This document shows, piece after piece, positions 8,165-14,795 of a DNA stretch of 20,121 bases (within the stretch, counting starts at the first letter, position 1; each line of letters opens with the position of its first letter). The notes under the pieces were generated by a model. That model had not been told where the DNA came from, did not search any database, and saw only the letters and a list, made by a program, of their open reading frames with translations. Made by a program: the position numbers and the translations under genes. The DNA is from a virus. The stretch is from positions 1-20,121 of the IMG/VR virus record IMGVR_UViG_3300033552_000593. One strand, 5' to 3'.

Positions 8165-8905
8165 ATGGAACTTTTAACCATAGGAACCGGTTCAAAAGGT
8201 AACGCTTATATCCTCAGCAATGGGGATGAAGCTTTATTAATAGAATGCGGAGTAAACATCAAGGAAATCAAACAAGCTTTAGATTTTGATTTGTCAAAAG
8301 TAGTGGGATGCCTCGTAACCCATGAACATCAAGATCATTGTAAGTCAGTTAAGGATATTTCTAAACTTGGGATTCGTGTTTACTCCGGACTAAGAACTCT
8401 TTTAGCTATGGGTATAAATTGCAGTCATAAAGCGTTTATAGTCATTCCTAAACAGTCATTTTCTATTGGAAACTTCAAAGTAATGGCTTTCGATGTTAAA
8501 CACGATGCTGCAGAACCATTAGGTTTCTTAATAGAGCATCCAGATTGCGGAAAGGTGCTTTTCCTGACTGATACTTACTATTGTGAATATACTTTCAAAG
8601 GACTGAATAACATCATCATTGAAGCTAATTATTCAAAGGAAATTATCGACAGAAAATTTGGTTATGATTCGGGAAAGGAATTTTTGAGAAATAGGATTTT
8701 AAAATCGCATTTCTCGCTGGCCAATTGCAAGGATATGTTAAGCGCTAATGATCTCACGAAAGTAAACAACATTGTTCTCATTCATTTATCAGACAGCAAT
8801 TCAGATGAAATTCAGTTTCAAAAAGAAGTTGCTGAACTAACTGGTAAAAACGTAACCGTTGCTAATAACGGCATGAAAATTAATTTCGGTAAAACCCCTT
8901 TTTAA
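8165..8905 (+). CDS. MBL-fold (YycJ/WalJ-like) hydrolase, candidate nuclease
   Basis: A 246-aa metallo-beta-lactamase fold protein. The metal-binding motif THEHQDH gives H53, H55, D57 and H58. Further likely ligands are H113 (VKHDA), D136 (LTDT), H182 (KSHFSLAN, the GHLS-type motif) and H207 (LIHLSD). The start GTGSKGNAYILSNG and the EAN at 153-155 match the YycJ/WalJ branch. Phage members occur beside RecT. I infer it degrades DNA ends to make single strands for RecT, which is not proven by the sequence. It is tightly packed: two bases after recT and a one-base overlap with the next gene. Confidence 0.85.
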   Translation: MELLTIGTGSKGNAYILSNGDEALLIECGVNIKEIKQALDFDLSKVVGCLVTHEHQDHCKSVKDISKLGIRVYSGLRTLLAMGINCSHKAFIVIPKQSFSIGNFKVMAFDVKHDAAEPLGFLIEHPDCGKVLFLTDTYYCEYTFKGLNNIIIEANYSKEIIDRKFGYDSGKEFLRNRILKSHFSLANCKDMLSANDLTKVNNIVLIHLSDSNSDEIQFQKEVAELTGKNVTVANNGMKINFGKTPF

Positions 8906-9345: not shown

Positions 9346-9659
9346 AAAAGCTAATACCGCCAGATCTATTTACCAATCAGCCAAAAATAGATTTTAGTCA
9401 ATTACAGCACATAGAAAACAAAATCAGCAATCAAGAACATTTTGAAGCGAATAAAGAGAAGTTTTCGAACCAATGTAAAATCGTTTACGCAGCCCTTTTG
9501 CGAGGCGAAAGATTAACCACTACAAAAGCCTTACTTGATTATAGAGTTGGCGATTTGAGACGTAGAATTAAGGACCTAAAAGACATCTGGAATGTACCTA
9601 TAGAATCCAGTTATGTAGATGGAAGCTTCAAAGAATATTATTTATCAATAATCAATTAA
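9342..9659 (+). CDS. HTH-domain protein (HTH_39-like)
   Basis: A 105-aa protein with a winged-helix segment at about 41-85: FSNQCKIVYAALLRGERLTT followed by TKALLDYRVGDLRRRIKDLKDIWNVPI. The pattern 'L-x-G-x-x-L-T-T-x-x-A-L...RRRIKDL' is that of the small helix-turn-helix domain found repeatedly in Bacteroidota phages and conjugative elements. It likely binds DNA as part of replication or recombination control. The N-terminal 40 residues look flexible. Partner or site unknown. Confidence 0.65.
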   Translation: MKKLIPPDLFTNQPKIDFSQLQHIENKISNQEHFEANKEKFSNQCKIVYAALLRGERLTTTKALLDYRVGDLRRRIKDLKDIWNVPIESSYVDGSFKEYYLSIIN

Positions 9660-13251: not shown

Positions 13252-13967
13252 TTGAACCAAAAGAAAAACCGTGCAAAGGTTCCGGGTTAGCGAAAGGCTA
13301 CGGATGTGATAGAAAAACAAAACATCGCGTTTATGGTCTTGGTAAAATGTGCGGTTGCTACACCGACTGGCTTTTGAACTCCGAAAACGGAAAAATAAAG
13401 ATGGCGAATGCTCAGTTATCAGCTAAAAAGACAGTTCACAAAGAGCAAATAAAAAAACAAAACGAAGAGCGCCAAAAAACAAAGATTGAGTTGATGAGTC
13501 CTGATAAGTACCGAGCAGAACATCTTCAGCCCATAATTAATGAAATTGCCAGAATAATTGATTTTGGTCAATCTTGCATCGCCACCGGAGATTTTGGCAA
13601 AATGAATGGAGGGCATTACGTGAGCGTAGGTGCCAACAGAACAACAGCTTTGAATTTACACAACATTCACATTCAATCCTTTTCCAGCAATCATCATAAG
13701 AGCGGAGATCCGATAAAATACCGGTTGGGATTGATTGAGCGATATGGGAATGATTATTTTGAGTATGTGCAATATATTCAACAACACAAAGCGCTGCATC
13801 TTACCAAAGGCGACATGATAGCCATTGCTCTTAAAGCGGCATCGATTAGAAACGAACTCAAACGCAGTGAAGAACAAAGAAAACCTTTCGAACGGATTGA
13901 GCTTCGAAACCAAATTAATTTAAGGCTTGGAATTTATGATCCAAAGTTCTGTGAATTTTTATTTTAA
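13248..13967 (+). CDS. NinG/Rap-like recombination endonuclease
   Basis: A 239-aa protein with the NinG/Rap signature: SCIATG (109-114), GGHYVSVGAN (121-130), NIHIQS (139-144), NHHKSGD (148-154) and YRLGLIERYG (158-167). An N-terminal cysteine cluster (C9, C20, C35, C37) may bind zinc, and residues 50-90 are a charged helix. Lambda NinG/Rap is a structure-specific nuclease acting on branched recombination intermediates. In this copy the cysteines usual in the central CxxC and QCxxCN positions are replaced (CIATG, QSFSSN), so the metal site differs, as in other Bacteroidota members. It ends the long early operon. Confidence 0.75.
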   Translation: MIEPKEKPCKGSGLAKGYGCDRKTKHRVYGLGKMCGCYTDWLLNSENGKIKMANAQLSAKKTVHKEQIKKQNEERQKTKIELMSPDKYRAEHLQPIINEIARIIDFGQSCIATGDFGKMNGGHYVSVGANRTTALNLHNIHIQSFSSNHHKSGDPIKYRLGLIERYGNDYFEYVQYIQQHKALHLTKGDMIAIALKAASIRNELKRSEEQRKPFERIELRNQINLRLGIYDPKFCEFLF

Positions 13968-13978
13968 TCAAAAAGAAT

Positions 13979-14005
13979 AAAATATATTCGCAATGAATAT
14001 ATTTT
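13979..14005. promoter_or_regulatory. 27-bp AT dyad at a promoter, candidate operator
   Basis: AAAATATATTC (13979-13989) and GAATATATTTT (13995-14005) are perfect 11-bp inverted arms around the spacer GCAAT. The dyad lies 14 bases upstream of the -7 box at 14020, over the expected -33 region. It starts 12 bases after the ninG-like stop. A protein bound here would control the second early operon. A weak terminator for ninG is the alternative. Confidence 0.5.
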
Positions 14006-14019
14006 GTTACATTTTTTTG

Positions 14020-14027
14020 TATGTTTG
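14020..14027 (+). promoter_or_regulatory. Second early promoter, -7 box TATGTTTG
   Basis: TATGTTTG is an exact TAnnTTTG. A TTTG at 14003-14006 is only 13 bases upstream, shorter than the usual 17-23, so the -33 box is unclear and activation may be needed. Predicted start near 14034 places the pseudoknot RNA at the very 5' end of the transcript. Confidence 0.5.
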
Positions 14028-14041
14028 CCATGTAGTTCAGA

Positions 14042-14115
14042 CGTCCACAATATGCTACACTTAAAATATTGGCCTTATAATCTGGAGGGAGTGGACGCCC
14101 AAAGGATTATGAGGC
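14042..14115 (+). ncRNA. Apparent pseudoknot leader RNA upstream of the DUF3560 gene
   Basis: Helix A pairs CGTCCAC (14042-14048) with GTGGACG (14091-14097), seven Watson-Crick pairs. A small hairpin AATAT/ATATT (14049-14053 with 14066-14070) stacks next to it. Helix B pairs GCCTTATAATC (14072-14082) with GATTATGAGGC (14105-14115), eleven pairs with one G-U. The order A, B, A', B' is an H-type pseudoknot. Six T follow at 14123-14128, so helix B could also act as an attenuator. It lies between a promoter box and ATG 14151. No known riboswitch class is recognised. Confidence 0.55.
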
Positions 14116-14150
14116 TTTACTGTTTTTTATAATCAAAATTTAAATTATTT

Positions 14151-14795
14151 ATGAACACATATTCAAAATTTGCGCCAAATGTATTTGTTGCTAAATGTCC
14201 AGAAATGCACGAAAAAGGCGAAACTATTATTTTAGAAACCAAGTATGGAAAAGAGCACGAATGCATTGTTTTTAACCTTGTAGCCAGAGATAGGGAAAGT
14301 AATTTTTATTATTCCATTGTTAGGTCTGATGGGTTCAATGCCCAAGAATTTGCAAAGAAAAAAGCTGAAAGATATCAAAATTGGGCTGTAAATTCAGAAA
14401 ACAAATCAACTAAATACTGGGAAGCGTCAAAAGAAGGCAAAGACTTTCTTGCATTAGCTGAACCAATCAAAATCGGGCACCATTCCGAAAAGAGACATCG
14501 TGCGCTTATTGAACGAAATCATAATAGAATGGGAAAATGTGTTGAGGAAAGTAAAAAAGCAGAACAGCACGAAAGCAAAGCCGAATATTGGGAAGCGAAA
14601 GCAAATGACATCAATTTGTCAATGCCGGAAAGCGTTGAATTTTATGAATATAAAACCGAAGCCTCCAAGGAATACCATGAAGGTTTAAAGTCTGGAAAGT
14701 ACGAAAGATCACATTCGTTTTCTTTAACGTATGCAAAAAAAGCCCTGAATGAAGCTGAAAAAAATCTAGAAATGGCTAATAAGCTTTGGTCTTAA
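14151..14795 (+). CDS. DUF3560-domain protein
   Basis: A 214-aa protein. The segment PIKIGHHSEKRHRALIERNHNRMGKCVEESKKAEQHE (about 105-141, with GHHSEKRHR at 109-117) is the hallmark of DUF3560, a domain carried by plasmids, conjugative elements and phages and without an assigned biochemical role. The N-terminal 100 residues look like a small beta-rich domain (GETIILETKYGKEHECIVFNLVARD). The C-terminal third is helical and charged. It is the first gene after the pseudoknot RNA, so its expression may be controlled by that RNA. An ATAATCAAAATTTAAATT leader abuts the start. Confidence 0.75.
   Translation: MNTYSKFAPNVFVAKCPEMHEKGETIILETKYGKEHECIVFNLVARDRESNFYYSIVRSDGFNAQEFAKKKAERYQNWAVNSENKSTKYWEASKEGKDFLALAEPIKIGHHSEKRHRALIERNHNRMGKCVEESKKAEQHESKAEYWEAKANDINLSMPESVEFYEYKTEASKEYHEGLKSGKYERSHSFSLTYAKKALNEAEKNLEMANKLWS

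Follow-up and report, generated by a model that had tools for sequence, protein, structure and literature searches.

The window, by which we mean the whole stretch of 20,121 nucleotides analysed here (positions 1 to 20,121 of IMG/VR record IMGVR_UViG_3300033552_000593, to which window coordinates refer), contains a putative operon with genes for a DUF3560 protein, PcfK/PcfJ-like proteins and the DNA polymerase beta clamp, and a structured leader RNA lies directly in front of it (Table 1). The initial annotation had described the leader as following a TAnnTTTG box, preceding the DUF3560 start by 35 nt and being accompanied by a T6 run, and all three landmarks are present in the sequence, the ATG at 14151 lying 35 nt past 14115. 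Since PMC9723704 places the TAnnTTTG-type box of F. psychrophilum at -12 to -5, transcription in the window is predicted to start at 14032, and the structured RNA is predicted to begin at or next to this position.

Table 1. Features of the leader element and its surroundings in the window.
Feature	Position	Strand	Basis or remark
-7 promoter box TATGTTTG (TAnnTTTG, flavobacterial sigma-A type)	14020..14027	+	read from sequence
Hairpin 1, stem 14031-14036/14054-14059	14031..14059	+	minimum-free-energy fold; abuts predicted transcript start
Loop 1 kissing segment CGUCCAC	14042..14048	+	covaries with 14091-14097
A-rich linker, motif AARRNAUU = AAAATATT at 14063-14070	14060..14070	+	motif present in 14 of the 16 linkers counted
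Hairpin 2, lower stem 14071-14083/14104-14116 (13 bp including G-U pairs)	14071..14116	+	covariation, 8 sequences
Hairpin 2 internal loop, GGA/AAA	14084-14086/14101-14103	+	
Hairpin 2 apical stem, GGG/CCC	14087-14089/14098-14100	+	
Hairpin 2 apical loop, 8 nt, AGUGGACG	14090-14097	+	
Loop 2 kissing segment GUGGACG	14091..14097	+	covaries with 14042-14048
T6 run, terminator-like	14123..14128	+	6 nt from hairpin 2, larger gap than in other members
DUF3560 protein gene, first behind element	14151..14795	+	PF12083, E 1.2e-37

Two interleaved helices had been proposed for this leader, and both were recovered: the 7-bp helix reads CGTCCAC/GTGGACG in the sequence, and the 11-bp helix is part of the longer, G-U containing lower stem of hairpin 2. 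The pseudoknot in the window leader RNA is real, but its nature is that of a kissing helix between the loops of two hairpins, which the initial annotation had overlooked together with hairpin 1 itself, the internal loop and the apical stem of hairpin 2. The 5-bp hairpin that it had stacked between the two helices (14049-14053/14066-14070, AATAT/ATATT) did not hold up, being absent from the homolog L024 and crossing the conserved stem of hairpin 1, which the minimum-free-energy fold predicts. Both hairpins of the window were present in that fold computed without the pseudoknot, and the stem of hairpin 2 folds at -22.3 kcal/mol. The earlier impression of unusually strong structure agrees with a z of -2.76 for the nested fold, only 1 of 200 shuffles being equally good, and shuffling loop 1 of the window produced a match to loop 2 of at least 7 in 279 of 200,000 trials.

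The window element belongs to a family of which we describe 18 elements with 17 different kissing pairs, found in IMG/VR flavophage contigs, in the Flavobacterium phages 11b, hattifnatt, mumin and morran, and in the Cellulophaga phage phi19:1. The kissing pair of the window, CGUCCAC/GUGGACG, recurs in L024, and is replaced by CAUCCAC/GUGGAUG in L026 and by UUUGCAC/GUGCAAA in L027, so the kiss is kept in these three relatives with bases changed in two of them. For the isolates, hattifnatt and others carry the pair GUGAGACG/CGUCUCAC, mumin, mymlan and snusmum9-1 carry GUGGAACG/CGUUCCAC, and morran9-1 carries GUGAGAAG/CUUCUCAC. Changes in the kissing segments are compensated among closely related phages and likewise between distant members, which favours the leader RNA that had been proposed together with a covariation test of this kind. 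Across 17 elements the two loops of each element match over 6-8 nt. These matches add up to 126, a total that 2,000 permutations of the partners never brought above 88, and 20 of 272 swapped pairs reach a match of at least 6. The loops of copies within one phage are orthogonal; the three elements of hattifnatt have matches of 8, 8 and 7 with their own partners and of 3-4 with each other's. Because the sequence of the kiss differs between copies and yet is kept, and the copies of one phage do not pair across, the kiss acts within one molecule.

For hairpin 2, an alignment of eight members that was itself fitted to the structure had 99.2% of its cells paired and substitutions of both partners in 9 of 15 pairs, with a covariation score of 0.767 against 0.246 for shuffled alignments (0 of 500 shuffles). 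An unfitted alignment of six members was 92.2% paired and scored 0.524 against 0.194 (0 of 500). The internal loop, whose types were read by eye from the folds with G404 left out of the classes, is GA-rich in most members. It has the form GGA/RAA in the window, L024, L026, L027, one element each of G409 and G410, two of hattifnatt, and mumin, the form GAA/GAA in G410b, G414 and phi19:1, and the form UGAC/UGAC in the third hattifnatt element; in G409b and 11b it is AGUA/GAA, which resembles the loop E motif. In morran the loop is shortened to AA/GA, and G406 lacks it. The linker motif AARRNAUU, which was picked after the linkers had been inspected, occurs in 14 of 16 linkers as against at most 5 in 20,000 shuffles; the two linkers without it are those of G410b and G414, with G404 and G406 outside the count. 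Since the internal loop and the linker are kept in sequence, they are the likely site of a contact; they could touch each other in the three-dimensional fold, or else a ligand, a protein or polymerase. A Paenibacillus terminator-like hairpin around position 3076 of L068 has the same UGGAGGGA...CCCAAAGG GGA/AAA loop; it was considered as a member and rejected, having no kissing partner, and the resemblance is probably due to chance.

The descriptor used to search for the architecture called for both hairpins, the second accompanied by four or more Ts in a row, and for an uninterrupted run of 6 or more Watson-Crick pairs joining the two loops; in its final form it admits stems that run into the T-run. 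Unanchored, the descriptor gave no enrichment, with 43 matches as compared with 40, 25 and 70 in the controls. When it was anchored on TAnnTTTG, the isolate set (9 loci, 313 kb) yielded 9 matches, all of at least 7 bp and representing 5 distinct sequences. With the threshold at 6 bp, the numbers were 0 in the reverse, 1 in the complement and 0 in the same-sequence control, and 0, 0, 0 and 0 in four shuffles; at 7 bp or more, the 9 matches stand against 0 in the three non-complement controls. The 42 loci (709 kb) of the IMG/VR flavophage set yielded 10 matches against 1, 0 and 2 in the controls and 2, 1, 0 and 1 in shuffles, where three of the ten (window, L024 and L027) had entered the set because a sequence pattern had found them and two more (L163 and L175) were dropped as presumably spurious, with hairpin 1 far from the box at offsets 35 and 43. 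The isolate set is the fairer test. Other viral loci (104, 952 kb) gave 1 match against 0, 1 and 1 in controls and 0, 0, 2 and 3 in shuffles, scrambled boxes gave up to 4 anchored matches, and a 400-kb sample of a Bacteroidia chromosome with 458 boxes gave none.

The position of hairpin 1 was counted as an offset from the first base of the box, with +1 at offset 12 and a scan range of 8-50. In 17 of the 19 automatic anchored matches (9 of 9 in isolates, 8 of 10 in IMG/VR) it begins at offset 11-15, between -1 and +3 relative to the predicted start. The controls for these two sets contained a single match at offsets 11-15 (complement, offset 14), and six rounds of shuffling produced five matches in total, none at 11-15 and one at 9-17.

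Other members were reached through sequence. A 17-base loop 2 pattern led to L024 and a second pattern with the kissing bases left free led to L026 and L027; two wider exact patterns returned 14 and 69 stretches, including three known members and none additional, and two exact-pattern scans of genome contigs returned 0 and 11 stretches with no member among them. The sister phage L016, with the same upstream gene (Pfam NinG), has the same box in the same place but a different RNA of identical architecture. The leader sequence of the window was upstream of none of 14 DUF3560 neighbourhoods (11 from IMG/VR and 3 from phage records), L008 among them being a relative by architecture only, and the element is not tied to DUF3560. 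A blastn search of the element against phages and plasmids gave no relevant match. Hattifnatt was retrieved because it weakly matched the 11b leader in blastn, and its first element was found at a query coverage of at least 80% in 46 phage-collection records, with GenBank and RefSeq copies both counted. There are three copies in hattifnatt and two each in G409 and G410. The isolates with the element are 11b, hattifnatt9-1, lillamy9-4, mumin6-3 and sniff9-2, but the Baltic phages are not independent of each other because they share sequence; the anchored descriptor found no element in 6H, pippi8-1, phi13:2 (first 36 kb) or FpV4 (first 30 kb).

For phi19:1, whose host belongs to another genus, a 33-nt match to the hattifnatt 5' UTR led to KC821607 10353-10451, the sole anchored match within 40 kb. 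Besides the box and the linker motif, this element shows a hairpin 1 that begins at offset 14, an internal loop of the GAA/GAA type and a 7-bp kiss of its own, GUACGAC/GUCGUAC; it is an independent member with the same architecture. The least secure members are G410b, which has no TAnnTTTG box directly upstream, G414, which has TATATTTA, G406 and G404. The R1 and R2 models, run on 395 genomes (the class of a Pedobacter genome), gave 9 weak R1 matches and one R2 match, all judged to be chance or ordinary terminators, and the R3 model, run on 386 genomes (the order of G361), gave 9 weak matches with the architecture in none; these three models cover the GGA/RAA type only, and stricter search filters lose some weak matches.

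Rfam 15 had no match in the window at the gathering cut-off, and an E-value search of 13960-14170 reached 23.1 bits at best against a cut-off of 63; at the other member loci it reported only a tRNA, with nothing in L203 and no family at any tested element. We know of no RNA element described as controlling transcription in Bacteroidota phages. No description of such an element was found in searches of the open-access PMC literature, and the terms 'RNA', 'terminator' and 'promoter' were absent from the text of PMC7077304, which deals with the Baltic phages. The family was found in no Rfam model and in none of the literature reached by these searches, and the window has all of its defining features, namely the TAnnTTTG box, a flush hairpin 1, the linker, a terminator-like hairpin 2 and a kiss of at least 6 bp.

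T-runs close to the end of hairpin 2 reach a maximum length of 4-9 in all 17 elements considered. For the members found with the descriptor this figure is partly built in, four Ts being its required minimum; in the four members that were reached by sequence alone, every run is 6-9 long. The window copy is the least canonical terminator of the family. With a T-run that begins 6 nt past the stem, it would make a weak terminator, and a built-in terminator scan (loops of up to 8 nt) gave its hairpin 2 no score. An unsystematic look turned up no alternative pairing that is conserved and could serve as an antiterminator. In 15 of 17 elements (phi19:1 outside the count), the distance from hairpin 2 to the start of an ORF is 10-64 nt and the interval is free of TAnnTTTG; the next ORF lies at 354 nt in G406 and 985 nt in G404. 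The genes behind the elements differ, including DUF6291 in L024, a helicase in L026, an annotated helicase and primase in hattifnatt and a primase in phi19:1, and they name no ligand. Their order suggests that the genes form operons, many for replication, and their content suggests that the promoters are early ones.

Covariation and the members in other phages uphold the proposal of a structured leader RNA directly after a sigma-A type promoter. While the two-hairpin kissing structure of the family is well supported, its function we infer. The initial annotation had left a switch, an attenuator and a stand-alone RNA side by side, and the choice can be narrowed to a leader that acts in cis and carries a terminator-like hairpin. 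With a probability of roughly 0.55, and judging from sequence comparison, we propose that the leader is a conditional terminator that gates phage operons, many of them of replication. RNA polymerase would start at about 14032, hairpin 1 would fold at the 5' end of the RNA, and its loop would pair with the loop of hairpin 2 as the latter emerges. Hairpin 2 and the U-run would then form an intrinsic terminator before the first gene, and read-through past it would switch the operon on. The kiss, the conserved internal loop and the linker may together be the site that decides between termination and read-through, contacted by RNA polymerase, by a host or phage protein, or by a ligand. Action in cis on read-through is suggested because the unit is complete, with a promoter, a flush RNA, a terminator-like hairpin and a near gene, and with no second box. 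A wider and distinctly more tentative proposal is that these elements constitute a new class of RNA-only transcription gates in Bacteroidota phages. Every operon would have a kissing code of its own, the kissing-loop fold of the nascent RNA would decide whether polymerase halts at a terminator about 90 nt from the start, and up to three orthogonal copies would time the operons of one phage.

A different way of using such a fold is offered by the put elements of phage HK022, which bind RNA polymerase at the beta' zinc-binding domain and suppress termination. In a put-like reading, the folded nascent RNA would bind RNA polymerase and protect it against pausing and against termination, both at its own terminator and at more distant ones. 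HK022 put is not known to have a U-run directly behind its second stem, whereas our elements have a U-run after theirs as well as a loop-loop kiss and a GA-rich internal loop. Both are short two-stem-loop RNAs without coding content, with more than one per phage (putL and putR in HK022), and put, at about 70 nt and with putL just behind PL, is similar in size and site (PMC9378689), although the terms 'kissing' and 'pseudoknot' were absent from that paper. Two stem-loops directly behind an early promoter are what we find too, where the early status is judged from gene content. The host phylum here is Bacteroidota. On balance we consider a put-like action unlikely. Less likely again is protection of the phage mRNA from 5'-dependent decay by a flush, locked 5' end. 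The onset of hairpin 1 at the predicted start, the stable fold and the placement of most elements just before genes would all suit a stabiliser, for which the U-run would be only AU-rich leader, but this reading accounts neither for the presence of that run directly behind hairpin 2 nor for the conservation of the internal loop and the linker.

A complete unit of promoter, RNA and terminator could also mean a stand-alone small RNA of about 90 nt acting in trans, for which regulated read-through would be unnecessary and in favour of which the distant ORFs of G406 and G404 would speak. We hold this to be very unlikely in view of the short, box-free spacing to an ORF in 15 of 17 elements; a common target by pairing is not expected either, because the loop sequences are not conserved. 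A leader peptide attenuator using the 26-codon ORF at 14053-14133, a frame that is open in the window, was rejected, as the matching ATG frame in L024 ends after 6 codons.

The conditional terminator reading also invites comparison with terminating riboswitches and protein-responsive attenuators, which likewise place a 5' leader of compact tertiary structure, with a terminator-like hairpin, ahead of a gene, whereas our elements have no noticed antiterminator helix and are linked to phage operon starts rather than to one pathway. Antisense attenuators of the pT181 type and RNAI/RNAII use loop-loop helices of seven to eight bases in termination or copy control, but both kissing loops of our element lie within one molecule. 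If conditional termination is correct, Bacteroidota phages, including cultured ones that infect laboratory strains of Flavobacterium, would gate operons by compact tertiary RNA at their promoters, and many of the gated operons would carry replication genes. The idea is directly testable because natural compensated loop variants exist, and the orthogonal kissing codes could become tools.

Several further observations concern the surroundings of the elements. In hattifnatt (L203, MN812207), the annotated helicase start at 9441 falls inside hairpin 2 of an element, and the in-frame ATG at 9477, directly behind that hairpin, is the likelier start. The 5' UTRs of L016 and L017 have the stretch GTCGTCGAGGACAAAA in common, which may form a small hairpin just before the ATG behind the element, and the 5' UTR behind the element at L203 14446-14478 is 91% identical over 33 nt to positions 304-336 of L241 (phi19:1), a match between a Flavobacterium and a Cellulophaga phage. 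A phage tRNA-Met gene (L174, 4706-4780, minus strand) lies upstream of the G410b element, behind a promoter box seen in L017. In the window itself, positions 8165-8905 hold a metallo-hydrolase gene in the recombination cluster, and a Porphyromonas phage protein with 47% identity to its product carries the annotation anti-Pycsar nuclease.
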